A stretch of 64,000 nucleotides of DNA, taken from contig NZ_JACJUK010000007.1 in the NCBI RefSeq assembly GCF_014235875.1, positions 100,261-164,260 on the forward strand, given 5' to 3'. The position numbers were made by a program, and so were the translations under genes. Shown here piece by piece: positions 363 to 56,745 of the stretch (positions are counted from its first letter, which is position 1; the number at the start of each line of letters is the position of its first letter). This stretch comes from Croceivirga lutea. Its GTDB lineage: Bacteria > Bacteroidota > Bacteroidia > Flavobacteriales > Flavobacteriaceae. The notes beneath the pieces are model-generated. The model was not told where the DNA came from, did not search any database, and saw only the letters and a program-made list of their open reading frames with translations.

Positions 363-749
363 ATCATTAAACTATGCTCAGTTCAAGGCTTTAATAAAAT
401 TTTAAAAAATTAAGCTCTGGAATGTACTTTTTTACTGAGAACCAAAAATAGAACTCCACATAGTAACCAATCAGGTAAGGTTGTAAAAGACAAGAAAATC
501 CTGGAATATTAGTATTTAGTGCATTGTTTTAGAAGGTCTAGTAGTGAGAACAGGCAACCTATAAATCTTGAGAAATAAGGGTTATAATAAAAATAATTAG
601 TTTATTCCAGCGCAGAAATCCATTGTAAAGAAAAATTAAAATATAGTCGACAAACTTAAATATCAATATTAGCTAGTAAAAAGTTATCAGATAGTACAGG
701 ATGCATTAGAATAATTAAAAGTTTAAACTTGTTATTAATTCTAAGGTTA
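363..749. other. Intergenic region, 387 bp, AT-rich
   Basis: No convincing gene is seen. The left 300 bases are AT-rich without a clear hairpin terminator after the small membrane protein. The right end holds the CAGGAT-box promoter described separately (697-731), placed just before the GH78 start. Confidence 0.6.
693..731 (+). promoter_or_regulatory. CAGGAT-box promoter for the GH78-sulfatase unit
   Basis: AGTACAGGATG has its CAGGAT at 697-702. A Bacteroidota-like -7 element TAAACTTG lies at 724-731, one mismatch from TAnnTTTG, beginning 22 bp after the last base of the box. The ATG follows at 750. The same geometry recurs at seven other sites in this window. Confidence 0.6.
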
Positions 750-3557
750 ATGAGCAATAAAATTCGTAGAAAACCTAAAATTGTAAGAAAAAGTTTTTCC
801 ATTTTCGTATTATTAATTTCTTTTATTCTTTTTCTTCAAAGCTGTTACCAAAAGAAATTAATAGCTCCACCAACTAATTTGACATTTAATGAAGGTTTTG
901 AGAACCCTATAGGTTTTTATGACGCTACGCCTTCCTTTTCGTGGAAATTACCACAAGAAATTGATGAGCAAGCATCTTATCATTTAGTGGCAGCTTCCAC
1001 ACCTGAACTTTTATCGGATTCTCCAGATATATGGGATACAGGGAAAGTCAGTTCTAGTCAATCCCTATATGTTTCTTATGAAGGAAAGCCCTTATCATCA
1101 CGTGATGAACTATATTGGAAAGTACAGATTTGGAATACTAAAGGAGAATCTTCAGCTTGGAGCGAAGTAGCACATATGCAGCTTGGATTATTAAATAATG
1201 AAGATTGGCAAGCAAAATGGATTGGTTTAGATACTAGAAAGGATAGTATAAAAGGAAAAAACAACACTACTATTCATACCCCTCAATACCTAAGAAATAA
1301 ATTTGAAACAAATAAGGAACTCTTATCTGCAAAATTGTATGTGACGGCAAAAGGGGTTTTTAAAGGTTTTCTTAATGGGAAGGCTATTAGTGAAGATGTG
1401 ATGACCCCTGGCTGGACACCCTATCAAAAACGCATTGAATCCCTTACTTATGATGTGACCGACATGTTACAAGAAGGTGAAAATGTTATAGGTTTTCAAT
1501 TGGCTTCAGGTTGGCATTTTGGACGATTGTTATGGAATAAGATGATTTGGGGACAAACGGGTTCTCCCAAAATACTATCTCAGCTAGAAATACTTTATGC
1601 TGACGGTTCTAAACAAGTTATCTCCTCAGATAAAACTTGGAAAGGTACCACAGAAGGCCCAATCCGGTTTGCAGAAATTTATGATGGCGAAATTTATGAT
1701 GCCAATTTTGAAATGCCAAGATGGGCCACTTCAAGTTTTGAGGATGCTAATTGGAGAAACGTAGAAATTACCGAATTGGATAAAACCGTTAAAATTTCAC
1801 CAAAAAGACATCATACTGTTAAAACAAAAATGGAAATGCCTGCTAAAAACATCATTGAACTAGAAAATGGAACCGGAATCATATTTGATTTTGAGCAGAA
1901 TATGGTGGGCGTGCCGAAGCTTAAAGTTCCCATGAAAAAAGGAGATACACTTAGGGTTCGATTCTCAGAGATGTTAGATCCTGATGGAAGTTTTTATACC
2001 GACAACTACCGCTCCGCAGGCTCTACCGATTACTATATCGCATCCCAGGATGGTATGATAGATTGGTACCCTATCTTTACATTTCATGGTTTTCAATATG
2101 TGGAACTAAGTGGTTATGATTTATCCGCTACCCCCAAAAAAGAATGGGTTACAGGTTTAGTGCAGTACTCTGACTTTGATAAAAATGGAACCTTTACTTC
2201 TTCACATGATAAACTAAATCAACTTCAGAGTAATATCAATTGGGGTTTAAGGGGAAACTTTTTCGACATTCCTACTGACTGCCCGCAACGTGATGAAAGA
2301 TTGGGTTGGACCGGCGATGCGCAGGTAATTGCCCCAACATCCATATTTAATAACGATGTGCATTCATTTTGGTCCAGTTGGTTGCAGTCTGTACGGGAAT
2401 CACAATACGAAAATGGTGGTATTCCCTTTGTCGTGCCAGACGCTGTTGAAAACAATAGGGTAAGTGCAGGATGGGGAGATGCCGCAGTGATTATTCCCTG
2501 GGCTATTTACGAAAGAACGGGTGATATGACCGTATTACAGGAGAACTACCAAATGATGAAAAATTGGGTCAACTATCACCAAATGCAATCTGAGGATAAT
2601 CTCTCGCCTATGAAGGACTCCTTCGGTGATTGGCTTCAGCCCCATCCAGTCAAAGAAAGCAACAAACGAGGTGACACCTCAAAAAAATTGATAGGCACAG
2701 CGTTTTTCGCCCATTCGGCACACCTCACTGCAAAGGCAGCGGCAGTATTGGGCTTGCTGGAAGAGAAAGAAAAATATCAAAATCTTTATCATACTGTTGC
2801 CAACGCTTTTGAGCAGGAATTTTTTGATGAAGAGGGAAAAATTAAAAATAGTAAAGCCACACAAACTGCATATTTATTGGCCTTGGATTTTGAATTATTG
2901 TCCGATGCCAATAGAAACAAAGCTGAAAAACATTTGTTGGATAAGATTAAGGAAGCTGACAATCACCTACGCACCGGATTTATAGGCACGCCATTGTTGC
3001 CAAGGGTCTTGGATACAATGGGGGAAACTGACCTGATGTACGAAATTTTATTGAAGGAAACCTATCCGTCATGGTTTTATTCCATTAACCAAGGGGCCAC
3101 CACCATGTGGGAACGCTGGAACAGCTACAGCAAATTGGAAGGATACAATCCTGAATCCATGAACAGTTTGAACCATTATGCTTATGGCGCGGTAGGAGAA
3201 TGGATGTACGAGCGTATTGCCGGAATAAAACCCCTTGAACCAGGTTATAAAAAAACACGGATTGCGCCAGTGCCCGGTGGGGGATTGACTTCTGCCGAGG
3301 CTACCTATGAGTCTCCTTATGGAAAAATCAAATCCGCTTGGAACCTTAAGGGCACTAGCTTTTATTTAGAAGCTATAGTACCACCAAATACTTCAGCAAT
3401 AATGTCAATTCCTACAAGCAAAAAAGAGGCTATAATAATAAATGGTAAGCAGTTGAAAGAGTGGAAAAACATTAAAATGGTTGAGCTTACAGATGGAAAC
3501 ATTTCTTTCGAGGTTTCACCTGGTACGTACCATGTAGAAGCAATAACAAATAAATAG
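750..3557 (+). CDS. GH78 alpha-L-rhamnosidase, lipoprotein
   Basis: Predicted inverting exo-alpha-L-rhamnosidase removing terminal rhamnose from oligosaccharides. I start at ATG 750 (935 aa) rather than TTG 729, because the longer form adds seven residues overlapping the -7 element. Residues 1-32 are a lipoprotein signal ending in LQSC, so it should be anchored in the periplasm or on the outer membrane. The order follows GH78: N-terminal beta-sandwich domains, then an (alpha/alpha)6 catalytic barrel with the family signature DCPQRDERLGWTGD at residues 510-523 and the second signature TTMWERW with E788, then a C-terminal beta domain. By motif, D510, E516, D523 and E788 are the conserved acidic residues. 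It sits 6 bp before a sulfatase, suggesting co-transcription. By eye the central part is richer in GC than its ends. Confidence 0.93.
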   Translation: MSNKIRRKPKIVRKSFSIFVLLISFILFLQSCYQKKLIAPPTNLTFNEGFENPIGFYDATPSFSWKLPQEIDEQASYHLVAASTPELLSDSPDIWDTGKVSSSQSLYVSYEGKPLSSRDELYWKVQIWNTKGESSAWSEVAHMQLGLLNNEDWQAKWIGLDTRKDSIKGKNNTTIHTPQYLRNKFETNKELLSAKLYVTAKGVFKGFLNGKAISEDVMTPGWTPYQKRIESLTYDVTDMLQEGENVIGFQLASGWHFGRLLWNKMIWGQTGSPKILSQLEILYADGSKQVISSDKTWKGTTEGPIRFAEIYDGEIYDANFEMPRWATSSFEDANWRNVEITELDKTVKISPKRHHTVKTKMEMPAKNIIELENGTGIIFDFEQNMVGVPKLKVPMKKGDTLRVRFSEMLDPDGSFYTDNYRSAGSTDYYIASQDGMIDWYPIFTFHGFQYVELSGYDLSATPKKEWVTGLVQYSDFDKNGTFTSSHDKLNQLQSNINWGLRGNFFDIPTDCPQRDERLGWTGDAQVIAPTSIFNNDVHSFWSSWLQSVRESQYENGGIPFVVPDAVENNRVSAGWGDAAVIIPWAIYERTGDMTVLQENYQMMKNWVNYHQMQSEDNLSPMKDSFGDWLQPHPVKESNKRGDTSKKLIGTAFFAHSAHLTAKAAAVLGLLEEKEKYQNLYHTVANAFEQEFFDEEGKIKNSKATQTAYLLALDFELLSDANRNKAEKHLLDKIKEADNHLRTGFIGTPLLPRVLDTMGETDLMYEILLKETYPSWFYSINQGATTMWERWNSYSKLEGYNPESMNSLNHYAYGAVGEWMYERIAGIKPLEPGYKKTRIAPVPGGGLTSAEATYESPYGKIKSAWNLKGTSFYLEAIVPPNTSAIMSIPTSKKEAIIINGKQLKEWKNIKMVELTDGNISFEVSPGTYHVEAITNK

Positions 3558-3563
3558 AAAAGA

Positions 3564-4901: not shown

Positions 4902-5444
4902 CAGCATTTTATACTTATTTCTCTTCAAATAACTTAAAAATTTAATCAACAGGTCAGGAAAGTAATGATTTGCTTTCCCAAATAATTATCTGAAAAGTTT
5001 TCTTTAAAAAGTAGCTAAGTTGAAGGTATTATTCTTTTGGATTTACTAAAAAAGTAATTTTCCGCTATTAAAGACATCATACTTCATTTCAATTCAAAAT
5101 TCTTAAATATAGTCATTGCCACTAAGCTCGTAGCTAGCTTCCTAAATGGTTTTCTTATGCACTAAAATTAAACTCGCCAATAAAAGAAAAATACAAATTC
5201 ATATAATGATACAAGCATTAATAAATTATGTCTATTTCTGTTAAAATTTGAGCAATTTAAAAAAATAAATAGGTCTAGATTGTTTACTTGAAAATGAATA
5301 AAAGTCAATAATTATTTGCTGTTTTGATGATATTCCTCCATTTATCATTTTTTACAGCACAGTACAGTACAGGATGAGAACACTAACTCTTAACGATAAT
5401 TTAACAACCATTAACAGAACTAAAAACTAAATGATAACGACTTT
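4902..5444. other. Intergenic region, 543 bp, AT-rich, upstream of susC
   Basis: No coding frame is supported. No strong hairpin terminator follows the sulfatase. The first bases after the stop (AGCATTTTATACT) also occur just after the GH3 stop near 13802; there is no stem in it. The right end contains the CAGGAT-box promoter at 5360-5404. Otherwise I see nothing. Confidence 0.6.
5360..5404 (+). promoter_or_regulatory. CAGGAT-box promoter for susC/susD
   Basis: CAGTAC at 5360, CAGTAC at 5365 and CAGGAT at 5370-5375 overlap in a row (CAGTACAGTACAGGAT). A weak -7 element TAATTTAA starts at 5397, again 22 bp after the end of the box. The susC ATG is at 5445. The repeated CAGTAC units may be additional half sites for an activator. 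Confidence 0.55.
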
Positions 5445-10151: not shown

Positions 10152-10196
10152 CAGGATGCCACGGGATAGAATTTTTACACGCTAAGAGTATATTTC
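10152..10196 (+). promoter_or_regulatory. CAGGAT-box promoter for the GH5-GH3-symporter unit
   Basis: Two half sites, CAGGAT at 10152-10157 and CGGGAT at 10162-10167, are spaced exactly 10 bp. A -7 element TATATTTC (one mismatch to TAnnTTTG) starts at 10189, 22 bp after the end of the proximal half site. The GH5 ATG is at 10212. Confidence 0.6.
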
Positions 10197-15497: not shown

Positions 15498-17267
15498 CTA
15501 TATCTTTTTTTTAATAATTTCGCTGGGTTTATATCCAATTCGGTGAGCCTGAACTTTAATATCAACACCTGGTTGTACTAACAAAGTTCCATTATAAACC
15601 GACCAATTTTCAGGCTCGTTTCCATTAGTTATAATTTTATAACCAATAGATGCACCGGCTGTAGAACAGTTTATGCTTGCCTGATTTCCCTGTACATTGA
15701 AATTAGGCATGGCTGTTTTGGGTTGCGTTTGGGCACCATTCCATAATTGATTTAACAATTCCTTTTCCGGTAGATTGGGTTGATCTCCAATTTTTGCTAT
15801 CCAACGGTCCATTTCGTTTTGAAGTTCCTTTAGCTTCACAGCATATTTAGGGTCATTGGCTAGATTATGGAGTTCGTGCGGGTCGTTTACACAATCATAC
15901 AATTCATCAATAGGTTTTGACGCTCTGAACCACTGCATCTGAATGCTGTCCAATTCACCTGCATCGCGCAGTCGTAACAATTCTTGCATGGTCGGTATCT
16001 TTTCACGGTAGTCTATCGGTAGATAATAGCCCTGCTCCGGGCGGTAATTTCTGATGTATTTGAACCTTTTGTCCCTAACGGCACGTATGGCATCGGTATA
16101 TCCATCAAAGCGGTCGGCTGCCGCGTGAATATAGGTGCGTTCTTCGTCATGTGCAAATTCACCCAAAAATGCCTCTCCTTGCAAATGTTCGGGCGGATTT
16201 GTTCCAGTAAGGGAGAGCAAGGTTGGCGCAAAATCAACGAAACTAACCAATTGTTCATCGACAGTACCTGCTTTCCATTTGTTAGGAAAACGAATAATCA
16301 TAGGAGTATTTAATCCTGAATCATAAATCAACCGCTTTTGTCGAGGCAAAGGCCCACCATGGTCGCCGTAGAAAAAGATGATGGTATTTTCCAAAAGACC
16401 ATCTTCCTCTAACTGCTTCAAAACAGCACCTACCTGCTTGTCCATTTCGGCAATATTGTTGTAGAGCTTCCACATATCGCGACGAACTTCAGGAGTGTCG
16501 GGCAAATAAGGGGGAATATCAAATTGGGTTTCTTTTGAAAGATGAACAGGGGTTTTTTCCTCAGTCATTCTATTTTTGGCGTGTGAGCCGCCAAAGTTTT
16601 GCCATTTATAATTTTGATTGCCAGAATGGTAGTGTCTTGTTTCAATTTCCCTAAAACCATAAGGTTCAAACAAACCCGATTCATGGGTTTCGGTAAAATT
16701 CATCACCGCGAAAAAAGGTTGATCTTTTTCTCTATTTCTCCAGTGGGCATATGGGCTACTCTCATCCCAAGCGGTCATGGGTGCTTTGAACTGATAATCG
16801 GTTTTATAGTTGTTGGTGCAGTAATACCCTTCGCTGCGCAAGAGTTCACTAATCATTTTCACCTCTGGTGGCGGTATGGCTCCATATTTTGGCAAACCGG
16901 TTACTTCGGTATAGGAAGTGGTCCGCATATGGTTGGCACCAATACTGGAAGGATACATTCCCGTTGCTATCGCTGCCCTACTGGGCGCACAGACACCTGA
17001 TGTAGAAAATAAGTTAGGATAAATGACCCCTTCTTTAGCCAAGCGGCTTAGATTGCGTGTGGCTATGGTAGAATCGCCAAACATGGGTAAATAGGCCCCC
17101 ATATCTTCAGTAACTAACCATAGAATATTGGGTTTTTTAGGTAACTCAATTGTTATTATTTTACTACTGTTTTTTTCACCTGTTTCATTTTTACAACCAT
17201 TAATGGCCATAATTAATATAATGAACAAACCTGTTCTTATTTTAATGTTGATTGCTGAGTCAATCAT
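15498..17267 (-). CDS. S1-family sulfatase (sulfamidase-like) with C-terminal beta domain
   Basis: Predicted formylglycine-dependent sulfatase, 589 aa, with a lipoprotein-type signal (MAINGC, Cys at about residue 25). The catalytic Cys is C93 in CAPSR. The first metal motif reads TEDMG rather than DD, as in the N-sulfoglucosamine sulfohydrolase-like (S1_8-type) branch; FYGDHGG supplies the later metal ligands. Residues from about 515 form a small extra domain (KTAMPNFNVQGNQASI and YKIITNGNEPENW) that resembles the C-terminal Ig-like domain of chitobiases. The target is probably a carbohydrate O-sulfate here; nothing else suggests aminosugars. It is transcribed divergently from the sulfatase-GH78 fusion, with its own CAGGAT box. 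Confidence 0.92.
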   Translation of the reverse strand: MIDSAINIKIRTGLFIILIMAINGCKNETGEKNSSKIITIELPKKPNILWLVTEDMGAYLPMFGDSTIATRNLSRLAKEGVIYPNLFSTSGVCAPSRAAIATGMYPSSIGANHMRTTSYTEVTGLPKYGAIPPPEVKMISELLRSEGYYCTNNYKTDYQFKAPMTAWDESSPYAHWRNREKDQPFFAVMNFTETHESGLFEPYGFREIETRHYHSGNQNYKWQNFGGSHAKNRMTEEKTPVHLSKETQFDIPPYLPDTPEVRRDMWKLYNNIAEMDKQVGAVLKQLEEDGLLENTIIFFYGDHGGPLPRQKRLIYDSGLNTPMIIRFPNKWKAGTVDEQLVSFVDFAPTLLSLTGTNPPEHLQGEAFLGEFAHDEERTYIHAAADRFDGYTDAIRAVRDKRFKYIRNYRPEQGYYLPIDYREKIPTMQELLRLRDAGELDSIQMQWFRASKPIDELYDCVNDPHELHNLANDPKYAVKLKELQNEMDRWIAKIGDQPNLPEKELLNQLWNGAQTQPKTAMPNFNVQGNQASINCSTAGASIGYKIITNGNEPENWSVYNGTLLVQPGVDIKVQAHRIGYKPSEIIKKKI

Positions 17268-17298: not shown

Positions 17299-17338
17299 CA
17301 ATATTACAAGCTTAAAGGTAAATTAATAACCTGTACTG
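17299..17338 (-). promoter_or_regulatory. CAGGAT-type promoter for the minus-strand sulfatase
   Basis: Read on the minus strand: CAGTACAGGTT from 17338 to 17328, then TAATATTG at 17306-17299 (one mismatch to TAnnTTTG), starting 22 bp after the end of CAGGTT. The start codon is at 17267. The CAGTACAGG core matches the susC and GH78 boxes. Confidence 0.5.
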
Positions 17339-17389
17339 TTACGTATAACATCGTATGTCCTGAACTGGGTTTAGAATAAAGCTTATCCT

Positions 17390-17434
17390 CAGGATAGAAC
17401 AGGATGGGATTGCAACTCCTTAAAATTAAGTTTG
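17390..17434 (+). promoter_or_regulatory. CAGGAT-box promoter for the sulfatase-GH78 fusion unit
   Basis: Two perfect CAGGAT copies at 17390-17395 and 17400-17405, spaced 10 bp, followed 22 bp later by a perfect -7 element TAAGTTTG at 17427-17434. The TTG start is at 17502. This is the best example of the motif in the window, and it is back to back with the minus-strand box at 17338. Confidence 0.7.
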
Positions 17435-20500: not shown

Positions 20501-21032
20501 TAGCGTTTATGGCGCACAATTTTTAATGGATGGTTTATACAATGCAGGTGAAGAAGATTATGCACTTGAACTATTATCGAGTCAAGCAAAAAGAAGCTGG
20601 TACAATATGATTCGAGTAGGCTCAACCATTAGTTTAGAAGCTTGGGATTATGAGTATAAAGTGAACCTAGACTGGAACCATGCTTGGGGCGCGGCACCAG
20701 CTAACGTAATTCCCAGAGGTTTATGGGGCATAAAACCCAAAACACCAGGCTTCGGTATAGCCACCATCAAACCCCAAATGAGCAGTTTAAAAAACAGTAG
20801 TATTGAAGTGCCTACGGTAAGGGGTACGATTAAAGGCACCTATACCTATAACGGTCCACGTTTGCAGACCTACGAAATTGAAATTCCGGGTAATATGGTT
20901 GCAGAGTTTTCATTGAATAATTTAGACGGAAAAGACTTTATCCATAATGGAGAAAAAGTGCCAGCGGCATTTGAGTACATCAGATTAGCACCCGGTAAGC
21001 ATACGATACAATTAAAAATCAATTCTTTCTAG
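17502..21032 (+). CDS. Bimodular S1 sulfatase-GH78 alpha-L-rhamnosidase
   Basis: One 1176-residue polypeptide that should first remove sulfate and then cleave rhamnose, or the reverse. Start codon is TTG at 17502; a Sec signal peptide begins directly there ([17 protein letters not shown]), supporting it, and no ATG fits as well. Residues about 28-465 are an S1 sulfatase with LTDDQR, the catalytic C79 in CAASR (Ala replaces Pro, allowed in the C-x-P/A-x-R signature) and [10 protein letters not shown]. Residues about 475-1176 are GH78: an Ig-like domain with [10 protein letters not shown], the acidic motif [12 protein letters not shown] at 764-775 and the base candidate E1046 in ISLEAWD. The same architecture (S1_25-GH78) is known from the ulvan PUL of Formosa agariphila, which is a main reason for proposing ulvan here. 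Confidence 0.94.
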
Positions 21033-32207: not shown

Positions 32208-32218
32208 ACCAACGCTCC

Positions 32219-46885: not shown

Positions 46886-47785
46886 TCAAAATTGCAGTGA
46901 TGGCCGTTTGATTTTAGTACCACTTCTAAATTTCCCAGGTGAAATTCCCGTTTTCTTTTTAAAAATTCGATTAAAATAAAAATCACTTTCAAACCCCAAT
47001 TCAAAGGCAATTTCTTTCTGCGTTTTGTTCGTAGCCAAGAGGAGCTCCTTGGCTCTTTCAATCTTTAAGCTTAAAAAATATTGTAAAGGAGATACTCCGG
47101 TCTGTTTTTTAAAATCCAGTCGAAACTTGGAATAACTTACCCCAAGCTGCTTGGCAATTAATTTTAGCTTGATGGATGAATCGATATGATTGTACATGAT
47201 GGACTTTGTTTGGTTGACCATGGTATTCATTTCCGCTACATTTAGCCCCCCTGCCTTTAGATTATACAATTCAGCCATGAGCTGTAAACAAAGTGCAGAA
47301 GCTGTTCGTTGAAAACCAAAGTCCTCTCTTTCAAATAACAAAAAGAGCCTGTCGAAAAGGGTTAAAATTTGGGCTTGGTCGGCATTGGAAATTATCGGGT
47401 CTTCAGGGCTGAAAAATCCATTGGCAATGAACTGCCTGGCAATCGTACCTGAAAAACCTATCCATCGTTCCGTCCAGCCACTATTTTGCTCTGGTCTATA
47501 CCGGTGCCAAACCCCTGGAAAGAGCAAGAATACATCCCCATTCAAAAGCCTGACCTTTCCTGTGGGATTACTTTCAAATTCCCCTTCCCCTTGGGTAATC
47601 AATACTAGATGAAATTCATTCAAAACCCTGCCGTTTTCCCAAGAAAACATATAAGAATCAGGATGATTCGTACTTGGATAGTTGGAGTTTGCTGGAATTT
47701 TGGTCCGCCCCAGATTGTTGATGTAAAATCCCCAAGCCTTGTCCCGTTCAAAGACCAATAAGTATTTTCGATAGCTATTTTCCAT
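46886..47785 (-). CDS. AraC-family transcriptional regulator
   Basis: 299 aa, cytoplasmic. The N-terminal half (about 30-150) is an AraC-type cupin sensor (FHLVLITQGEGEFE, VFLLFPGVWHRYRPE). The C-terminal 100 residues hold the two helix-turn-helix motifs (LKLIAKQLGVSYSKFRLDFKKQTG and EIAFELGFESDFYFNRIFKKKTG). It is the only transcription factor in the window and lies in the middle of the PUL, divergent from a GH78 gene, so it is the obvious candidate for binding the CAGGAT boxes; AraC proteins contact two successive major grooves, which would fit direct half sites 10 bp apart. Its own promoter shows no such box. The ligand is probably a rhamnose-containing mono- or oligosaccharide, by context only. 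Confidence 0.94.
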   Translation of the reverse strand: MENSYRKYLLVFERDKAWGFYINNLGRTKIPANSNYPSTNHPDSYMFSWENGRVLNEFHLVLITQGEGEFESNPTGKVRLLNGDVFLLFPGVWHRYRPEQNSGWTERWIGFSGTIARQFIANGFFSPEDPIISNADQAQILTLFDRLFLLFEREDFGFQRTASALCLQLMAELYNLKAGGLNVAEMNTMVNQTKSIMYNHIDSSIKLKLIAKQLGVSYSKFRLDFKKQTGVSPLQYFLSLKIERAKELLLATNKTQKEIAFELGFESDFYFNRIFKKKTGISPGKFRSGTKIKRPSLQF

Positions 47786-48012
47786 ATCATTTTGTGCAAT
47801 AAATATATCAAATTGTTAATTGGTCTTGGGTTACTTTTTCTCGAAATTGTATGAATTATGAAAGTTAAATGGGGATTTATTATTAAAAATTGAAATCAAC
47901 TCAATTGTGGTAATTGGTTTATCAATAAAGAAATCTATAACAATCTTAAAATGAAGAAACAAAATATGCTATTTGTGTGCGATAAAAACAATAACCTTCA
48001 ACTATTGATGCC
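47786..48012. promoter_or_regulatory. Divergent intergenic region between araC-type regulator and GH78
   Basis: 227 bp, AT-rich. It must contain the promoters of both genes, but I find no CAGGAT box in it and no perfect TAnnTTTG; the nearest is CTATTTG around 47970. The GH78 unit to its right may therefore be controlled differently from the box-bearing units. Confidence 0.4.
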
Positions 48013-51000
48013 ATGAAAATTTTGAGACTTTTCTATACAACACTTTTTGTTATCCTCATAGGATGTAACTCTGAATCTGGGATTACCGTTACGGATTTAA
48101 AATGTGAGTACCGCGAAAATCCTTTGGGAATTGACAATACGACACCTAGATTTAGTTGGAAGCTGATGAAAGAAAATTTTACGAGGGGCGAAAGACAAAC
48201 GGCCTATCAAATTGTGGTTTCGCGTGATTTTAATAAAGACGATGCTGTTGTCTGGGATTCGAAGAAGGTGACTTCCGACCAATCTGTAAACGTTAGATAT
48301 GCAGGTGAAGTACTAGCCTCAAGCAAGAAGTATTTTTGGAAGGTTCGTTTTTGGGATGCAAAAGGCCAGGCTTCCCCTTGGAGCGAAGTTGCCCATTTTT
48401 CGATGGGACTCTTACAAACAACCGACTGGAAAGGTGATTGGATTCATAAAAAAGACCAAAAAAAGACGGACCATAATTGGTACCGTAAAACCTTTGAACT
48501 AACTAAAAATGTTGAATCGGCCTTGGTTTATGTAGGCTCCTTTGGGTACCATGAACTTTATGTCAACGGTGAGAAAGTCACCCAAAACGTGATGAATCCC
48601 GTTTCCTCTTATATGAAAAAGCGGATTCCCTACCTCACCTATGATGTTACCGATTTACTTCAGAAAGGAAAAAATGTCATCGCCATTTGGCATGCCGCTG
48701 GTTGGGCGCGTTGGGACAGGATTACCGAGTATCGAAATCCGCCATTCGTCTTTAAGGCTCAGGCCGAAATAGAAACAGCTTCTGAACAAATTTCACTCTA
48801 TACCGACGAAACTTGGAAATGCAAAAAAAGTCATAGCGAATATTACGGTGATTGGGATATTTTGGATTTCGGGGGCGAAACCATCGACGATAGAAAAAAA
48901 GAAGACGATTGGAATACCCTTGCCTACGATGATAGCGACTGGGCAAATGCTGCGATTTATGACCACAGGGCATTAAATAAAGCACTGAAAGAGATTAAGG
49001 AGGATGTGGTGGTTTTGGAAGATATATTAATTGGCAGGGGCAAATTCAAAAACAGGCGATTTACCCCCATCACTGCTGAACTGAGTTCTCAAATGGTAGA
49101 ACCACAGGTACGATTCAAAGAAGTAAAACCTATTGGTGTGGCCAAAAATGACGATGGCACCTATCGTATTGATATGGGTGAAAATTACACCGGTTTTTTT
49201 GAGATGGAACTGTATAACGGTAAGGAAGGCGATTCCATTTTATTTGAAATCAGCGACCGAGAAGAGGTTACCTCCAACTGGAAACAGAAAAGCAAATACA
49301 TCTATGGCACAACGGGTAAGGGTAAATTCGAAAATCGATTTAATGTGGCCGGTGGTCGTTGGGTGACCGTTCACGGCTTGAGTTACGAACCGGAGTTAAA
49401 AGACATCAAAGGTTATGTGGTCACGAACGACCGGAAGCAAATCAGTTCGTTTGAATCATCAGACCCGCAATTGAATAAAATTTATCAAGTCAATTTGGAT
49501 ACCTATATCGCCAATACCATGGATGGTATTTTGGTCGATTGCCCCCATCGGGAACGTCGAGGCTGGGGCGAAGTGACCGTCGCTGCCATGTATGGCGATG
49601 CGCTGCCCAATTTTGAGAGTGGTGCCTACATGGACCAATACCTACAATACACAAGGGATGCCCAACTGCCTGACGGACAAATACGGGCCATCATCAATGA
49701 GAACGACCGACCCTTTCTAATGTGGAAGGCCAATAACCCCTTGACCGTTTGGGAAACCTATAGAATGTTAGGCGATAAAAAAGTGTTGGAAGACAATTAC
49801 GAATCCATGCAAAAATGGATGACGTGGATGTACGAACATTCGGATCATGAAAATGGAGGTCCGCTCATTGCCGGAGAACGTGGGGCACGGGAATTTCCTG
49901 GTTTAGGAGATTGGTGTACCCCGCGAGGTAATTTTTGGACAAGTAGCAATTCTCCCAATGCATTGCATTTTAACAATAGTATTTACGCTTACATGCTGGA
50001 TAATGCTGTAAAAATTTCTTCCACCTTAGGTAAGGAAGAAGATGTGGCCACCTATTCTGATAGACTTGAAGTGCAGCGCAACGCCACGCACCAAATGTCT
50101 TATGACCCTGAAACAGGAAAATATGTTAACGGCCAACAAGTAAATCAGGCTTTTGCCTTATTGGCGGGAGTGACACCTGATGCCGAAAAGAAAAAGGTCT
50201 ATAATAATCTGGTAGACAACATACTGTACAAGTATCCCTATTACGATACGGGCAGTTCGGGTCAGGCCTTGTACACGCGATATTTTTTAGAATCCGGGGA
50301 GCGCATGGATCTGATTTACGAGTTGCTAAAAGATAAACACCACCCCAGCTACGGTTATTTCCTAGAACAGGGCAAAACGGTGTGGCCCGAGCGTTGGTCG
50401 GCCGTAGGAGTCAGCCAAATCCATACCTGTTACACGGGTATTGGCGGCTATTTTATTAAAGGTTTTGGGGGTATTCGTCCGCAACCAGAACATCCGGGTA
50501 TGCAACAGATGATGATAAAACCCGCGGTGGTCAGCGATTTGGAATTTGCAAACACCGAGTACGAATCTATGTATGGAAACGTGGTGGTCAATTGGAAAAA
50601 ATCGGGGAAAGATGCGACCTTCCATGTGGAAGTCCCTATTAATACCACGGCCAATATTTATCTGCCCGCAACCTCTAAAGAAGTGGTGTCGGAAAATGGT
50701 GTGCTTGCTGAGAATGCAGAGGGACTGCAATATGTAGGGGTGGAAGCCAATGATGCAGTAGGTAACTATGTGATTTTTGAAGCGGTTTCAGGTATTTATG
50801 ATTTTCAGGTAGGGGAGTTGCCAAAAACATCCTTTCCAGCACCATTGGGTACTACAGAAAATTTAGCGCAATTGGGGAGGATAAGTGCATCTTCCATGTA
50901 TATCGAAACCGAAAAACTACCAGGTTTTGAGGCCTTTAAAGCGAATGATTCCGATGATGAAACCCGCTGGTTGGCAGCAGAAGTAGAAAACCAATATTTG

Positions 51001-51240
51001 GAAGTCGTTTGGATTGCCCCCCAAACCTTTAGCATGATTGAATTGAATGAGGTAGGCAATGCCATTACAGACTTTAAAATCCAGATATGGAAAGAAGGTA
51101 CTTGGCAGGATGTAACAATTGCCAGCACAAATAAGGTAACGAAAAAACACAATTTCGAAAAGGTAACGACCACCAAGTGCCGGATTTTAATTGAAAAGGC
51201 TACTGCGCCGCCATCCATTTCAGAAATCAGAATTTTTTAA
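48013..51240 (+). CDS. GH78 alpha-L-rhamnosidase with C-terminal discoidin-like domain, lipoprotein
   Basis: 1075 aa with lipobox LIGC near residue 18. N-terminal Ig-like domains (YFWKVRFWDAKGQASPWSEV, like the GH78 at 750) and a beta-sandwich with ELYVNGEKVTQNV precede the (alpha/alpha)6 barrel. The family signature is DCPHRERRGWGE at 509-520, where E520 replaces the usual final Asp, and the base candidate is E793 in TVWPERW. After the GH78 C-terminal domain, residues about 965-1075 form a discoidin/F5-8C-like domain (SSMYIETEKLPGFEAFKAND, DETRWLAAEVENQYLEV), likely for glycan binding. Predicted exo-rhamnosidase. It starts the unit to the right of the AraC gene. Confidence 0.93.
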   Translation: MKILRLFYTTLFVILIGCNSESGITVTDLKCEYRENPLGIDNTTPRFSWKLMKENFTRGERQTAYQIVVSRDFNKDDAVVWDSKKVTSDQSVNVRYAGEVLASSKKYFWKVRFWDAKGQASPWSEVAHFSMGLLQTTDWKGDWIHKKDQKKTDHNWYRKTFELTKNVESALVYVGSFGYHELYVNGEKVTQNVMNPVSSYMKKRIPYLTYDVTDLLQKGKNVIAIWHAAGWARWDRITEYRNPPFVFKAQAEIETASEQISLYTDETWKCKKSHSEYYGDWDILDFGGETIDDRKKEDDWNTLAYDDSDWANAAIYDHRALNKALKEIKEDVVVLEDILIGRGKFKNRRFTPITAELSSQMVEPQVRFKEVKPIGVAKNDDGTYRIDMGENYTGFFEMELYNGKEGDSILFEISDREEVTSNWKQKSKYIYGTTGKGKFENRFNVAGGRWVTVHGLSYEPELKDIKGYVVTNDRKQISSFESSDPQLNKIYQVNLDTYIANTMDGILVDCPHRERRGWGEVTVAAMYGDALPNFESGAYMDQYLQYTRDAQLPDGQIRAIINENDRPFLMWKANNPLTVWETYRMLGDKKVLEDNYESMQKWMTWMYEHSDHENGGPLIAGERGAREFPGLGDWCTPRGNFWTSSNSPNALHFNNSIYAYMLDNAVKISSTLGKEEDVATYSDRLEVQRNATHQMSYDPETGKYVNGQQVNQAFALLAGVTPDAEKKKVYNNLVDNILYKYPYYDTGSSGQALYTRYFLESGERMDLIYELLKDKHHPSYGYFLEQGKTVWPERWSAVGVSQIHTCYTGIGGYFIKGFGGIRPQPEHPGMQQMMIKPAVVSDLEFANTEYESMYGNVVVNWKKSGKDATFHVEVPINTTANIYLPATSKEVVSENGVLAENAEGLQYVGVEANDAVGNYVIFEAVSGIYDFQVGELPKTSFPAPLGTTENLAQLGRISASSMYIETEKLPGFEAFKANDSDDETRWLAAEVENQYLEVVWIAPQTFSMIELNEVGNAITDFKIQIWKEGTWQDVTIASTNKVTKKHNFEKVTTTKCRILIEKATAPPSISEIRIF

Positions 51241-51250
51241 TCGGCATACT

Positions 51251-52477
51251 ATGAATGATAGGAGGAAATTTATAAAAGACGTGTCAGCCTTGGGACTTGT
51301 AGGCGCGACCTATCCCTTATTGAGTTCTTGTTTGGATAAAAGAAAAACTACGCTACTGGATGAAAAGATAACCAAGATTGAATTGTATAGATACGATATC
51401 AATATACCTAGGTATTTTTCTTTCGGAACCTGGTACAACCGCCAACATTTGTTTATGAAATTGACTGCAGGGGACTTTTATGGTTGGTCTGAAATTCCAG
51501 CTTCAAGAAATGTACCCGATCTGCAACCGGTGAGTTGGGTAAACTATGTAAAACAATTTAAGGGACTGACCGTTTCGGCAGCTCAAGAATTGTTGCAATC
51601 ACAACAAGTGCCCGACAGTGCCACTTCCTTAAAGGAAATGGAATTTATGGATGTGGCACTATTAGATGTTGCAGGTCGTTTGCAAGAAAAACCCGGAGTA
51701 GAACTGCTTGATCTACCCTATAGTGATGCCGTACCTGGACTTTATTGCATTCTGTATAAAGATGAGGAAGAAGTGCGAAAAGAAGCAGAAAAAAGTCTGG
51801 AACAAAACCTAGGCCATCACCTTAAATTCAAGATGTACGGTGAGCAGGAGCTTGACCTGAAATTATTGAAGATTATTCGAGGGGTATTGGGAGAGAATTC
51901 AGTAGTAATTTCAGATGTTAATAGTGGTTACAAAAATTGGAGTTCCTTGAAGGAACTTGCCGATATCATAAACGTATTTAAGGACAATGGTTTAAATGCC
52001 ATTGAGGACCCTGCCGAAATGAGCAACGATCAATGGGCGACCTTACAAGGGATGGTGGGCGAACTCTCTTTAATTCCCGATAAGCCCATGCGACCTTCGT
52101 GGAAAGGTATGGAAACGATTCGACCTGATATGGGGCGCATCTTCAACATGCACCCATCTACTATGGGCAGTTTCAAACAAACGGCACTACTAGCAAACAA
52201 AATACGTGAGGTAGGTGGTAAAATTATGGTGGGGGATGATAGTTTGGTAGGCCCAGCCTGTTCGGCATGGCAACAACTGGCCATAGGTGTTGGAGCCGAT
52301 TGGGTAGAAGCCATTGAGAAAAAAGAGGATTCTGCCCTGTACATGGATTGTATTATAAAATCACCCACCAAAAAACTATCCAACGGCTATTATGCCTTGG
52401 AGAAAGCACCTGGATTTGGGTTGGTATTGGACGAGGAACGACTAAAAAGCATGACCAAATTATATATAGACATTTAA
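51251..52477 (+). CDS. Enolase-superfamily (mandelate racemase/muconate cycloisomerase) protein, exported
   Basis: 408 aa from ATG 51251; an upstream in-frame start at 51191 lies within the GH78 gene. The N-terminus combines a twin-arginine-like motif (DRRKFIKDVSALGLVGA) with a lipobox (LLSSC), which predicts a Tat-exported lipoprotein. The enolase fold follows: a capping domain, then a barrel with LKFKMYG (KxK-type base), ISDVNSG (first metal Asp), AIEDPAE (second metal Glu), and IMVGDDSLVGP near the last strands. Sugar-acid dehydratases and epimerases use this fold, usually in the cytoplasm; export suggests action on an oligosaccharide-derived acid such as an aldonate or unsaturated uronate. 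The third metal ligand is not obvious, so activity is uncertain. Confidence 0.82.
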   Translation: MNDRRKFIKDVSALGLVGATYPLLSSCLDKRKTTLLDEKITKIELYRYDINIPRYFSFGTWYNRQHLFMKLTAGDFYGWSEIPASRNVPDLQPVSWVNYVKQFKGLTVSAAQELLQSQQVPDSATSLKEMEFMDVALLDVAGRLQEKPGVELLDLPYSDAVPGLYCILYKDEEEVRKEAEKSLEQNLGHHLKFKMYGEQELDLKLLKIIRGVLGENSVVISDVNSGYKNWSSLKELADIINVFKDNGLNAIEDPAEMSNDQWATLQGMVGELSLIPDKPMRPSWKGMETIRPDMGRIFNMHPSTMGSFKQTALLANKIREVGGKIMVGDDSLVGPACSAWQQLAIGVGADWVEAIEKKEDSALYMDCIIKSPTKKLSNGYYALEKAPGFGLVLDEERLKSMTKLYIDI

Positions 52478-52558
52478 AAACTAAACGAATAAATGCCCGA
52501 GCATAAAAATTGAAATCGTTTTGAGGAATGTTAATCTGTAAACTATTCAAAAAGTATA

Positions 52559-53989
52559 ATGATGAGAATTAAAAGAATCAGTCCTTTTTTTTATGCGATG
52601 CTATCGCTTGTCATTACGAGCTGTAAAAAAATAGAAGTTGTTAAAAAACCTAATGTGTTGCTCATCTGTCTAGATGACCTTCGTCCAGAATTAAAGAGTT
52701 TCGGCGCAACGCATATTAGCTCACCAAATATTGACGCTTTTGCGGAAACAGGGATTAGATTCCGCAAACATTTTGTGAATTCCCCAAGTTGTGGTCCATC
52801 GCGTTACACATTATTGACAGGACAATTTGGCCCCGTAGGCAATAATGCTCTTTTTCAAAGAGCAGATATAATGAACGAAGGCACTCAAAAGGTGGATAAA
52901 TCGATGCCAGCATGGTTTAAATCGCATGGCTATACTACGGTTTCTGTCGGGAAAGTTTCACATCATCCAGGGGGGAGAGGTGGCAAGAATTGGAATGACA
53001 GTTCAATAGTTGAAATGCCTAATGCTTGGGACAAACATCTTGTGCCCGTTGCGGAATGGGAACATCCACGTGGAATGATGCACGGTTTAGCCAATGGAGA
53101 GGTAAGGGTAAAGTCGGGCGAAATGGATGTATTTCAGACCGTAGCAGGAGATGATAATGTGTATCCAGACGGGGCAATTACTAATGAAGCTATAAGGCAA
53201 TTGAACTCACTTGCCGAGAATACCAACATTCCATTTTTTATGGCGGTCGGCATCATCAAACCACATTTACCCTTTGGTGCACCAAAAACGTATTATGACA
53301 GGTACAATGGCGTTGTATTTCCAGAGATAAAATATCCTCAAAAACCAAAAGGAAAAACCACATGGCACGGCTCAGGCGAATTTATGAGATACCATCGCTG
53401 GGGTAAAAATCCTAATACGGACCCTGAATTTGCCGATGATGTTCGTCGGCACTATGCGGCATGTGTGAGCTATGCAGATGCCCAAGTGGGCAAAATACTG
53501 GCAGAATTGAAAAGAACTGGGGCAGACAAAAACACTATTGTGGTCCTTTGGGGAGACCACGGATGGCATTTGGGAGAACACGGCATTTGGGGAAAACATA
53601 GTTTATTTGAGGAATCATTACATGCGCCCCTACTAATTCACCATCCAGAAATGAAAAACAAAGGGGCCAGTACAGATGCTATTGTTGAAACCGTGGACAT
53701 CTTTCCCACCTTATGTGATTTGGCCGGAATTGAAATCCCTGAGTACGGCCATGGGGTGTCCTTAAAAAAAATAGTGGCGGACCCAAATACCACAGGTCAT
53801 GACGCCATAGCGTATAACGGCAAGGCTTCAACCATAAGAACGCCAACCCATAGGATGATTCTTCATAAAGACGGATTTGTGGAATTATACGACCATACGT
53901 CAACAGAAAAGGAAACAAAGAACGTGGCAGGGCAACATGAGGAACTGGTGGAAGAATTAACGTATAAACTAAAAACAAGGTTGGATTGA
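52559..53989 (+). CDS. S1-family sulfatase, iduronate-2-sulfatase-like
   Basis: 476 aa with lipobox ITSC near residue 22. LICLDDLRPELKSFG is the first metal motif, C78 in CGPSR the formylglycine precursor, SVGKVSHHPGGRGG the next conserved segment and LWGDHGWHLGEHGIWGKH the late metal and substrate motif. This is the same branch (S1_7-like) as the proteins at 44483 and 56799. The three differ clearly in the loop after CGPSR (YTLLTGQFG here), so they are likely to remove different sulfates or act on different chain ends. It is 81 bp after the enolase-like gene and 63 bp before the isomerase-like gene. Confidence 0.92.
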   Translation: MMRIKRISPFFYAMLSLVITSCKKIEVVKKPNVLLICLDDLRPELKSFGATHISSPNIDAFAETGIRFRKHFVNSPSCGPSRYTLLTGQFGPVGNNALFQRADIMNEGTQKVDKSMPAWFKSHGYTTVSVGKVSHHPGGRGGKNWNDSSIVEMPNAWDKHLVPVAEWEHPRGMMHGLANGEVRVKSGEMDVFQTVAGDDNVYPDGAITNEAIRQLNSLAENTNIPFFMAVGIIKPHLPFGAPKTYYDRYNGVVFPEIKYPQKPKGKTTWHGSGEFMRYHRWGKNPNTDPEFADDVRRHYAACVSYADAQVGKILAELKRTGADKNTIVVLWGDHGWHLGEHGIWGKHSLFEESLHAPLLIHHPEMKNKGASTDAIVETVDIFPTLCDLAGIEIPEYGHGVSLKKIVADPNTTGHDAIAYNGKASTIRTPTHRMILHKDGFVELYDHTSTEKETKNVAGQHEELVEELTYKLKTRLD

Positions 53990-54052
53990 TGCTAGAAAGT
54001 CACCTGTAAAACGGAAGAGGTCTTTTGACGTAACATTAAAATAAATCAAATA

Positions 54053-55465
54053 ATGATAAAAGTTGGATTATTCGGAATAGGGTTGGATACCTATTGGCCA
54101 CAATTTGAGGGTTTGTTGGAACGTTTGCAAGGCTATCAAAATCAGATTGCTCAAAAGATGGAAGGTTTTGGGGCCGAGGTGGTCAATGTGGGTTTGGTGG
54201 ATTCCCCGGAAAAGGCACGCAAAACGGCACAAACCCTAAAAACGGAAGATGTGGATATGCTATTCTTATATGTCTCCACTTATGCGTTGTCTTCAACCGT
54301 TTTACCCGTGGTACAAAAGTTGAATTGTCCTGTGGTGATTTTGAACATACAACCCGTGGCCGCCATAGATTACGAACGTTTTAATGCCTTGGGCGACCGC
54401 GGAAAAATGACTGGCGAATGGTTAGCGCATTGCCAAGCCTGTTCCGTACCAGAACTGGCGAATGTTTTTAACCGCTCAGGCATAGGGTATGAATTTGTGA
54501 CCGGATATTTAGACGAGCCAGCCGTTTGGACCGAGATTCAAGATTGGATTGATGCCGCCCGTGTAAAATCTGTGATGAACCACAATCGCTTGGGCGTTTT
54601 AGGTCACTATTACGGCGGTATGTTGGATGTATATTCCGATTTGACCAAACAATCCGCCGCTTTTGGTACGCACATCGAAATCGTGGAAATGTGTGAACTT
54701 AAAAAATACAGGGATGCCGTTACCGCTGTTGAAGTCGACGGAAAGTTAGCGGAGTTCCAAAACACCTTTGAAGTCGTTGATGCTTGCGAAGATGCCGAAC
54801 TGATAAGGGCTGCAAAAACATCGATAGCCTTGGACAAATTAGTACAAAACCATGACTTAGGGTCTTTGGCCTACTATTACGAAGGCGAAAACGGCAACGA
54901 ATATGAAAATATAGTGACTTCAGTAATTGCTGGAAACACCTTGCTAACAGGGAAAAACGTACCGGTTGCAGGCGAATACGAAGTCAAGAATGCCCAAGCC
55001 ATGAAAATCATGGATGCCTTTGGGGTTGGTGGTTCGTTCTCTGAGTTTTATGCGATGGATTTCAATGATGATATTGTAATGTTAGGGCATGACGGTCCTG
55101 CACATTTTGCCATTGCAGAAGGAAACGTGGAATTAGTTCCTTTGCCCGTATATCATGGCAAACCGGGCAAGGGCTTATCCATTCAAATGACCGTAAAGCA
55201 CGGTCCGGTAACGTTACTCTCCGTTGTTGAAGGAAAAGACGATGTGTTTTTGTTAGTGGCCGAAGGCGAATCCGTTGAAGGACCGGTGTTACACATTGGC
55301 AATACCAACAGTCGTTACCGTTTTTCCATTGGGGCAAGGGCGTTTATGAACGAATGGTCCAAACAAGGGCCATCGCACCATTGTGCTATTGGCGTGGGTC
55401 ATATTGCGAACAAAATTGAAAAACTGGGGAATCTATTGAATCTTAGGGTGGTGCGTGTTTGTTGA
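54053..55465 (+). CDS. L-fucose/L-arabinose isomerase-like protein
   Basis: 470 aa, no signal peptide, so cytoplasmic, unlike most neighbours. The sequence resembles the L-arabinose/L-fucose isomerase fold: N-terminal alpha/beta segments (KVGLFGIGLDTYWPQF, DVDMLFLYVSTYALSS, CPVVILNIQP), a middle with RLGVLGHYYGGMLDVYSD, and a C-terminal part with GVGGSFSEFYAMDFNDD and GHDGPAHFAIAEGNVEL. These enzymes interconvert aldoses and ketoses with a manganese ion; the E and D in the FSEFYAMDF segment and a His near the C-terminus may be ligands. Since the PUL seems to release rhamnose, it might isomerise rhamnose, xylose or a product of the 3-keto route; I cannot choose. Confidence 0.82.
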   Translation: MIKVGLFGIGLDTYWPQFEGLLERLQGYQNQIAQKMEGFGAEVVNVGLVDSPEKARKTAQTLKTEDVDMLFLYVSTYALSSTVLPVVQKLNCPVVILNIQPVAAIDYERFNALGDRGKMTGEWLAHCQACSVPELANVFNRSGIGYEFVTGYLDEPAVWTEIQDWIDAARVKSVMNHNRLGVLGHYYGGMLDVYSDLTKQSAAFGTHIEIVEMCELKKYRDAVTAVEVDGKLAEFQNTFEVVDACEDAELIRAAKTSIALDKLVQNHDLGSLAYYYEGENGNEYENIVTSVIAGNTLLTGKNVPVAGEYEVKNAQAMKIMDAFGVGGSFSEFYAMDFNDDIVMLGHDGPAHFAIAEGNVELVPLPVYHGKPGKGLSIQMTVKHGPVTLLSVVEGKDDVFLLVAEGESVEGPVLHIGNTNSRYRFSIGARAFMNEWSKQGPSHHCAIGVGHIANKIEKLGNLLNLRVVRVC

Positions 55466-55498
55466 AGTTGATATTGAAATGAGTTTAATGAACATATT

Positions 55499-56593
55499 AT
55501 GATGAAAAATATTCTTTTATTTCTTGTTTTTGGTTTTACAATTACCTGCACTGGGCATAGATTGTATGCCACTGCAAATCCAGATACCACTTATACCATT
55601 TTCCAGTTCCCACAACATAAAATGCCACGTATAGACGGAGATTTTTCTGATTGGAATATGGTTCCCGATTCCTATGCTATTGGTTTGGACCAAATGAAAG
55701 AAACCGTCAATGGTATCGGTTTTAACCTTGATGCCAACGATTTGGATATTTCAGTAAAAGTAGGCTGGGTGAAAAACTTGAATAGGCTTTATTTTTATGT
55801 GGAAGTTTATGATGATTTCTGGGAGTTTGAACAATTGAATATCAAACAAGATATCTTTGAATTGGTAGTTGATGCTGATGTTTCCGGTGGAAATTTCATT
55901 AAAAAATGGAATGCAAATAAGCGAAACATTCCAATCGAAGAATTACATTTTAGAGGGCACGGTGCACATGCGCAGAACTATCATGTCTTTATGCCCGCAA
56001 TACATAAAGACTGGGCCATGGTTTGGGGCAATACCCCTTGGATTAAAGATTTTCCTTTTGCAAATGCAGCCTATAGTCATAATTTAGAACAAGGCAAATC
56101 AGGTACGCTTAAAATGGAGTTTTGGATAACACCATTTGATTACGCTGCTATTGAAGGCATCAATAGTTCGGTAGTATCAGAACTAAAAGAGAACGAGATA
56201 ATTTCCATGTCGTGGTGTGTTCTAGACTATGACAATGAAAATAAAGTGCGAAAAGATTTTATAAACTTGGCCCACAATACCAACATGATTCATGATGGCG
56301 ATTATATGAATGCATTTCGTTTAATGCCCTTGATTGAATCGTTACAACCCGGATTGCAAGCTAATTGGTCATTTGTTGAAGTTGATCGAGACAGGCGGAT
56401 TTTTGCGTTTAAAGACGAATCCTTAGGCAGCGTTGAAAAGTGGACATGGGATTTTGGTGATGGTACTACCTCAGAAGAGCGTCATCCTATACATCAATAT
56501 TCTAGCACAGGACACTGGACCGTGGTACTCACTGTGGAAGATGAAAGTGGAAAATCTATACGTTCCAAAGTTTGGGATATTGTTACGAAATAG
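55499..56593 (+). CDS. CBM9-like plus PKD domain secreted protein
   Basis: 364 aa with a Sec signal (LLFLVFGFTITCTGHRLYA), possibly lipid modified at the early Cys. Residues about 35-265 resemble a CBM9-like carbohydrate-binding module (PRIDGDFSDWN, RLYFYVEVYDDFWEFEQ, DIFELVVDADVSGG). Residues about 275-362 are a PKD domain (FKDESLGSVEKWTWDFGDGTTSEERHP, HQYSSTGHWTVVLTVEDESG). No catalytic domain is visible. It probably binds the glycan at the cell surface or in the periplasm; PKD domains usually act as spacers. It follows the isomerase-like gene by 33 bp and ends the unit before the next CAGGAT box. Confidence 0.82.
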   Translation: MMKNILLFLVFGFTITCTGHRLYATANPDTTYTIFQFPQHKMPRIDGDFSDWNMVPDSYAIGLDQMKETVNGIGFNLDANDLDISVKVGWVKNLNRLYFYVEVYDDFWEFEQLNIKQDIFELVVDADVSGGNFIKKWNANKRNIPIEELHFRGHGAHAQNYHVFMPAIHKDWAMVWGNTPWIKDFPFANAAYSHNLEQGKSGTLKMEFWITPFDYAAIEGINSSVVSELKENEIISMSWCVLDYDNENKVRKDFINLAHNTNMIHDGDYMNAFRLMPLIESLQPGLQANWSFVEVDRDRRIFAFKDESLGSVEKWTWDFGDGTTSEERHPIHQYSSTGHWTVVLTVEDESGKSIRSKVWDIVTK

Positions 56594-56700
56594 TATGGCA
56601 GAAATTTAAGTCAATATTGAAAATGAGAATAGGATTGATAAGCTGGCAAAGCTGTTCAATTGTTCTTTGGTTCGGGTTTGTTAAGCCATAACTAGCAAAA

Positions 56701-56745
56701 CAGGACTTAACAGGATAGTCTGAGCAATTCCAAATTGTATTTTCA
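56701..56745 (+). promoter_or_regulatory. CAGGAT-box promoter for the three-sulfatase and rhaT unit
   Basis: CAGGAC at 56701-56706 and CAGGAT at 56711-56716 are exactly 10 bp apart. TATTTTCA at 56738-56745 sits 22 bp after the end of the proximal box, a two-mismatch -7 element. The sulfatase ATG is at 56799. Confidence 0.55.

Follow-up and report, generated by a model that had tools for sequence, protein, structure and literature searches.

The 64,000 nucleotides of Croceivirga lutea DNA analysed here (contig NZ_JACJUK010000007.1, positions 100,261 to 164,260; "the window" in what follows) contain eight transcription-unit heads that carry a CAGGAT box at a nearly constant distance upstream of the -7 promoter element. 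Our reading is that the box is one half of a direct repeat, and that this repeat is likely the operator of one GntR-family regulator, predicted from sequence comparison to activate all eight promoters on L-rhamnose or a rhamnose catabolite. We put the probability of this reading at roughly 0.77.

The eight sites are listed below. Each has a counterpart in G010, a genome of the same genus, where identity is 89% in the 16-bp repeat, 89% in the -7 element, 67% in the spacer and 55-58% outside.

687-731, plus strand: operator-promoter of a GH78 rhamnosidase/sulfatase unit; distal half poor, CAGGAT at 697-702, -7 element TAAACTTG at 724-731
5360-5404, plus strand: operator-promoter of SusC/SusD; repeat CAGTACAGTACAGGAT at 5360-5375, -7 element TAATTTAA at 5397-5404
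10152-10196, plus strand: operator-promoter of a GH5/GH3/symporter unit; repeat CAGGATGCCACGGGAT at 10152-10167, -7 element TATATTTC at 10189-10196
17299-17343, minus strand: operator-promoter of the sulfatase gene 15498-17267 (minus strand); CGTAACAGTACAGGTT at 17343-17328 with a poor distal half, -7 element TAATATTG at 17306-17299; weakest of the eight (E 0.05 with the model R2, described below)
17390-17434, plus strand: operator-promoter of the sulfatase-GH78 fusion unit; perfect repeat CAGGATAGAACAGGAT at 17390-17405, -7 element TAAGTTTG at 17427-17434, predicted +1 at 17439 (R2 E 3.9e-7)
28294-28337, minus strand: operator-promoter of the 3-keto-disaccharide hydrolase gene 26887-28272 (minus strand); CATGAGACTACAGGAT at 28337-28322, -7 element TAACTTTA at 28301-28294; gap of 20 nt, as in the G010 counterpart
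28370-28414, plus strand: operator-promoter of the unit starting at 28433; CCACACACCACAGGAC at 28370-28385 with a poor distal half, -7 element TAGCTTGC at 28407-28414
56701-56745, plus strand: operator-promoter of a sulfatase/RhaT unit; CAGGACTTAACAGGAT at 56701-56716, -7 element TATTTTCA at 56738-56745

An earlier note on this DNA, made by reading the letters, had described eight CAGGAT sites. All of them are present, five with the exact box (ends at 702, 5375, 17405, 56716 and, on the minus strand, 28322) and three with one mismatch (CGGGAT ending at 10167, CAGGAC at 28385 and, on the minus strand, CAGGTT at 17328). The fixed distance to the -7 element stands as well, although the values of 22 and 21 bp given for it are coordinate differences; the bases between number 21 at seven sites and 20 at one. 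As to the -7 pattern TAnnTTTG, the element starts with TA at all eight sites, but only the one at 17427 (TAAGTTTG) is a perfect match. The flanking bases that had been noticed, TA before the box and a purine after it, recur in a larger set of 52 sites, where A precedes the box in 46 and a purine follows it in 50. What the note had missed is that CAGGAT is the proximal half of a 16-bp direct repeat and not the whole element.

As to the placement at unit heads, eight of the ten heads defined in the window have a site; those of the AraC gene (47785, minus strand) and of the divergent GH78 gene (48013, plus strand) do not. When sites were counted automatically and strictly in the 130 nt before each head, one of the kind first described was found at 7/10 of them; in 2000 trials with shuffled heads the mean was 0.24 and the maximum 3. 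The site at 702 escapes this count, its -7 element running into the TTG start used (729).

Structure of the repeat

The consensus is CAGKAY-AGTA-CAGGAY with a 10-bp period, in which CAGGAT is the promoter-proximal half and the distal half is weaker. The distal copy is perfect at 17390 and 10152, and has one mismatch at 56701 and two at 5360 and 28337 (minus strand). In the whole 3.45-Mb genome, CAGGATN4CAGGAT with at most one mismatch occurs five times, three of these at window promoters.

The period can also be seen in 36 sites from 27 loci around GntR genes of other genomes, which were chosen without using the distal copy: at offset 10 there is a C in 33/36 sites and CAG in 20/36. We looked in the same sites for a second copy about 21 bp upstream and found C at offsets 20, 21 and 22 in 12, 3 and 4 of the 36, and CAG in none. 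Two other operator plans were considered and rejected. By its column counts and the offset test, the element is a direct repeat and not a palindrome, and the offset counts speak against a repeat of about 21 bp as used by AraC proteins and hybrid two-component systems (HTCS).

Specificity and distribution of the motif

We used two models. R1 was built from the eight window sites and R2 from 44 hand-picked sites outside the window, with a lowest kept score of 19.3. The window sites were kept out of R2 on purpose, and among the donors of its sites are the genomes G000 (the window's own), G007 and G012. Note that R2 is partly dependent, since its sites were picked by means of the window-site matrix and some are orthologous promoters. 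Left out, at or above 19.3, were G012_C12 398750, 334915, 430210, 377262, 382095 and 391642 and G012_C30 112119, 80571, 115151 and 128922, the reasons being a variant box, a shifted gap, a weaker box, or overlap with an open reading frame (ORF) or another match.

The top eight R2 matches in the window are exactly the eight sites (E 3.9e-7 to 0.05; the next has 0.73), and in the preceding 40 kb of that contig no match is better than E 0.38. With R1 over the whole genome, the eight training sites are followed by four matches that all lie on one contig, C14, ahead of every other contig. A similar frequency in housekeeping DNA, which the earlier note had named as the finding that would speak against the motif, is therefore not what we see: 4/4 of the best non-training matches are on C14, a continuation of the same gene cluster.

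The expected concentration before polysaccharide-utilisation genes was borne out on C14, in the clusters of the congener and in an intergenic count over five genomes including the window's own. In 633 kb of these genomes, 93% of it coding, 56 non-training matches score 19 or more, and 51 of them are intergenic, 0-200 bp before an ORF on the same strand; with reversed box columns there are two matches. As these stretches were chosen for holding model matches, the count tests intergenic placement and not number. Furthermore, the same architecture was recovered around GntR genes in the 27 loci of other genomes, which are absent from every model. Up to about 20 places per genome bear the motif (22 in G165), and in G010 the motif cluster spans more than 100 kb.

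A candidate regulator and its co-occurrence with the motif

The protein that we consider the binder is encoded outside the window:

C14:68822-69862: candidate GntR-family binder, 346 aa, C-terminal domain LacI-like; its neighbours are rhaDE and a rhamnose-isomerase-like gene

Its N-terminal winged helix matches PF00392 with 47.8 bits (cut-off 27; 55 bits in the G007 orthologue). The periplasmic-binding-protein-like sensor at the C-terminus matches PF13377 marginally (27.8 bits, cut-off 26.5), and for the G007 orthologue no such domain is reported at E 1e-6. The gene is placed between a SusC/SusD unit (site score 17.1) and the rhaDE operon (site score 24.5). For rhaDE the match is to NF006191 (1371 bits, cut-off 1240), and the L-rhamnose-isomerase-like gene reaches 504 bits, below its cut-off of 647.

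To quantify the association, we scored 249 genomes of the family Flavobacteriaceae, with cuts of E <= 1e-3 for the motif, E < 1e-100 for GntR, more than 1100 bits for the HTCS and E <= 1e-60 for the AraC protein. Per genome 23 motif, eight GntR, two HTCS and nine AraC candidates were scored, and the counts are lower bounds. The motif is found in at least 58 genomes and the GntR in at least 54, and every one of the 54 GntR genomes carries the motif (Fisher 2e-50); leaving out G000, G007 and G012 as donors of R2 sites, it is 51/51. There are 36 motif genomes with the GntR but with neither an HTCS nor an AraC orthologue. At the level of single loci, 20 of the 27 have a site that is at most 300 bp from the GntR gene and directed away from it, and column-shuffled matrices give 0 loci in each of 20 cases. 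The contig search with a single GntR sequence gave only 3 loci; an alignment query would reach further.

A common activator type of Bacteroidota polysaccharide loci is the HTCS, and the boxes could be the operator of the one at C14:43688-47794. This HTCS belongs to the same cluster, and one of the sites with the highest scores (C14:47903) is divergent from it. It is significantly associated with the motif (5e-11), and with two candidates scored per genome some orthologues may be missed. Furthermore, the operators of Bacteroides HTCS regulons are likewise direct repeats before SusC/SusD and enzyme units. In the accessible part of PMC3878776, however, these have sites of 12-16 bp, spacers of 5-9 bp and a period of about 20-21 bp, compared with 6-bp halves, a 10-bp period, nothing comparable at 20-22 and another likely regulator here. 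HTCS orthologues are found in at least 20/249 genomes and in 18/58 motif genomes, and G007 has 7 motif matches and no HTCS match at E <= 1e-200. An HTCS would also leave unexplained the CAGAAY shift beside the GntR paralogue that is described below. We therefore rejected it as the binder on co-occurrence and operator period, and regard it as very unlikely.

The window itself encodes a further candidate:

46886-47785, minus strand: AraC-family regulator, own promoter without a CAGGAT site; considered as binder and rejected

In AraC proteins, two helix-turn-helix units are spaced by about one helical turn, and the protein considered here is encoded inside the cluster; its NCBIfam matches, all below cut-off, include AraC and RhaS. 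On the other hand, orthologues are found in at least 13/249 genomes and in 12/58 motif genomes, with none in the other 46/58 and none in G007. The gene's own divergent promoter has no box, and the sites show no 21-bp periodicity. Rejected again on co-occurrence and operator period, it is scarcely credible as the binder.

Next to the start of this gene, within the divergent AraC/GH78 promoter region (window positions 47786-48012), a block (ATCATTTTGTGCAAyAAATATATCAAATTGTTAATTG) is nearly unchanged in G000, G010 and G012. It is possibly the AraC protein's own operator, which would point to a second regulator for the unit 48013-56593.

Potentially, the box could also be bound by some other regulator that is inherited together with the GntR, for example one of the DeoR family; the rhamnose motifs of DeoR-type RhaR proteins are direct repeats with a period of 10-11 bp, as far as the text of PMC3870299 at hand describes them. 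Around the G007 locus, the GntR is the only recognised transcription-factor domain, and there is no DeoR domain, in the 20 of 29 ORFs scanned (E 1e-6; SusC, SusD, one boundary ORF and six edge ORFs were left out), no genome-wide DeoR search having been made. The shift of the motif tracks the GntR paralogue. We consider such a co-inherited binder improbable, if marginally less so than the HTCS.

A paralogue with a shifted motif

Five of the 249 genomes have a second GntR clade, that of G000:C12:69550, whose members are 71-79% identical to that protein and 42-46% identical to the main GntR. Within about 80 bp of the paralogue's own gene, CAGAAY replaces CAGGAY in 4/5 genomes, with a gap of 21; in the fifth, G279, the nearest match is a two-mismatch form of the motif. 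A mismatch-free CAGGAY repeat beside the paralogue gene was found in 0/5 genomes. Note that R2 also scores the CAGAAY variants in those four genomes (E 4e-4 to 0.014). The helix-turn-helix of the paralogue reads SVNELLIEFDISRDTIVRAY, compared with SINELSEEHLLSRDTVEKAY in the main GntR. Motif and regulator thus shift together. No other observation argues more strongly for the GntR as the reader of the box, because shared metabolism alone would not move the letter.

In the window's own genome, the CAGAAY-type paralogue is at L124:9550-10620 (G000:C12), with a site just downstream. A further GntR clade, 36% identical (L137-L141), was checked for the box, with none at E <= 1 and one weak matrix match in L141.

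Points against the assignment

Several observations weigh against the GntR as the reader of the box. The cut of 1e-100 was chosen after the gap in GntR E-values (2.5e-118, then 7.8e-84) was known. Four genomes have the motif at E <= 1e-3 without the main GntR. Two of these, G030 and G097, have only a diverged GntR (about 42-44% identical), yet CAGGAY-like sites beside these genes, which speaks for the GntR; G218 (88% complete) has no GntR, and G278 has one that is 36% identical, together with an HTCS. Outside the 249, G001 (92% complete) has three sites on C142 and no GntR at E < 1e-20. At a looser cut of E <= 0.02 there are 79 motif genomes, 25 of them without the main GntR, and about 5/249 would be expected by chance; either our rough E-values are too favourable, or other regulators account for part of the weak sites.

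At seven of the 27 GntR loci, no site comes as close as 300 bp to the gene; four of those seven have tandem GntR copies. No strong site was found beside the GntR copies G012:C30 (56% identical), G012:C5 (53%), G160:C26 (48%) and those of G034 and G257 (38%); some G012:C30 promoters form a group of their own, with a variant box. Three of the eight window sites, namely 687, 28370 and 17343 (minus strand), have a poor distal half that differs from CAGGAT at 3-4 positions. The shared rhamnose metabolism could partly account for the co-occurrence. Finally, GntR operators are usually palindromes, which the portion of PMC4494728 available describes as typical but not universal in the family.

Tandem GntR pairs are seen at L103, L107, L113 and L118 (55-60% identical to the query), and in G103, G077 and G196 the site stands just beyond the pair. 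At L084-L086 (G012:C30:70001-130000), the promoters have a variant box of roughly CAGAAACAACAGGATGC, mostly with a 21-nt gap, and the 56% identical GntR is on the same contig (C30:61888, L122).

Promoter geometry and direction of control

To measure the gap, we chose boxes only by their own letters, in 29 GntR loci that had contributed to no model (28 genomes at most; L119 repeats L090). This gave 45 box matches as compared to 5 with a reversed matrix. In 71% of the boxes, a -7 score of 5 or more is found when the gap is 21 nt exactly, and no other gap from 5 to 44 reaches more than 9%, in agreement with the fixed distance. The box was further said to occupy the place of the -33 element, and this agrees with our counts: TTG is present 17-23 nt upstream of the -7 in only 1/52 sites, and the box fills most of the positions tested, that is, it replaces the -33 element and does not add to it. 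The -7 element has TA in 51/52 sites and T at position 6 in 52/52, in sites that were selected partly by their -7.

A centre near -41.5 is the position of a class II activator. In Flavobacterium psychrophilum, the -7 box of sigma-A lies at -12 to -5, going by the accessible text of PMC9723704. If this placement carries over, the repeat would be at about -49 to -34, with its centre near -41.5. The sites thus stand in the -35 region at a fixed distance from the -7 element, as in class II promoters (gap 21 nt; predicted start positions), and from this position we infer that the promoters depend on an activator.

Characterised GntR regulators often repress, and the protein could bind the same sites as a repressor that is released by the sugar. 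Overlap of the site with the -35 region would also put a bound protein in the way of the polymerase. AusR of Zobellia galactanivorans, likewise a GntR-family regulator of flavobacterial polysaccharide-utilisation genes, is reported to act in this way on alginate genes, in those parts of PMC8286568 that are available; it is likened here by description, not by operator or clade, and its mode of action counts against activation. On the other hand, a repressor would not need an invariant gap, and promoters that lack the -33 TTG would be expected to be weak on their own. Both the constant gap and the lack of the TTG favour activation, by about four to one in our estimate, and repression appears rather unlikely.

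Comparison with known systems

AraR of Bacillus subtilis has the same domain plan as the GntR described here, a GntR helix with a LacI-like sensor, and its operator is palindromic. The structure of its DNA-binding domain (4egy) matches the GntR at 3.5e-8; it differs in being an arabinose repressor (by the molecule name of 4egy). RhaR of Bacteroides thetaiotaomicron and other rhamnose regulators likewise control genes of L-rhamnose catabolism, and several use direct repeats. They differ in family, as the accessible text of PMC3870299 lists twelve groups, of the AraC, DeoR and LacI families, and the word "GntR" is absent from its main text; the AraC-type rhamnose regulators newly predicted there have a 21-bp period, versus 10 here. 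There is precedent for GntR proteins on direct repeats in the FarR, NagQ, NanR and MocR types, which use different words according to the portion of PMC4494728 available, and the motif survey table in that portion has one Bacteroidetes regulator among those analysed.

We did not find a GntR-type rhamnose regulator of Flavobacteriaceae in the open-licence literature, as far as its texts were accessible, and a prior description elsewhere is possible. In summary, GntR proteins, direct repeats and class II promoters are known kinds, and their combination as a predicted family-wide rhamnose regulon is new.

Gene content, likely signal and a possible wider regulon

One transport gene of the window is of particular relevance to the signal:

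61165-62217, plus strand: RhaT, L-rhamnose/H+ symporter, last gene of the 56799 unit and inside the predicted regulon (NCBIfam NF010024, 512.5 bits, cut-off 468)

In addition to RhaT, the window encodes GH78 and GH106 rhamnosidases and nine sulfatase-domain genes, which suggests a sulfated rhamnose polymer of the ulvan or rhamnan type as its substrate. The G007 locus, with five sites, is of the rhamnogalacturonan type and has GH106, GH88, GH28, a PL22-like protein and a rhamnose mutarotase. Since rhamnose is what the two loci have in common, L-rhamnose or a catabolite of it is the likely effector.

On this basis, we propose the following mechanism. A dimer of the GntR would bind head-to-tail by way of the winged-helix domains. 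From a position of about -49 to -34, it would recruit RNA polymerase in place of the -33 contact. The LacI-like C-terminal domain would sense rhamnose that is freed by the rhamnosidases, and one rhamnose signal would jointly switch on outer-membrane uptake, the depolymerising enzymes, RhaT and the rha catabolic operon.

The usual view of polysaccharide loci in Bacteroidota is that each is self-contained and has a regulator of its own. In the present case, a single operator with a single likely regulator connects many loci for different polysaccharides in 54/249 Flavobacteriaceae genomes. There may be a family-wide flavobacterial rhamnose regulon, run by a GntR class II activator and not by HTCS or AraC proteins, which loci with rhamnose (rhamnogalacturonan, ulvan-like, rhamnan sulfate) would join by gaining a CAGGAT repeat 21 nt before the -7 element, and paralogous GntR activators with single-letter-shifted repeats may run parallel regulons for other sugars; we give this extension an even chance. 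Should the tie between operator and regulator be confirmed, it would provide a letter-level rule for predicting which rhamnose genes of marine algae degraders are co-regulated, and the two paralogues, with CAGGAY and CAGAAY, would be a natural experiment in DNA recognition by GntR proteins.

The end of the window at 64000 is also the end of its contig (C17:164260), and the cluster continues on C14:1 by synteny with G010:C61, a single contig that has orthologues of both the window and the C14 cluster. Window and C14 together are thus, by comparison with the congener, a predicted rhamnose-polysaccharide region of well over 100 kb.

Two further gene arrangements in the window may be mentioned. 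The ORF 17502-21032 is a sulfatase domain fused to a GH78 rhamnosidase, and its G010 counterpart is 87% identical. In 25539-28272 and 28433-33094, two divergent units behind CAGGAT-type sites, there are three 3-keto-disaccharide hydrolase genes, a ThuA gene and a GFO/IDH/MocA oxidoreductase; these units are perhaps an oxidative route for breaking glycosidic bonds beside the rhamnosidases.

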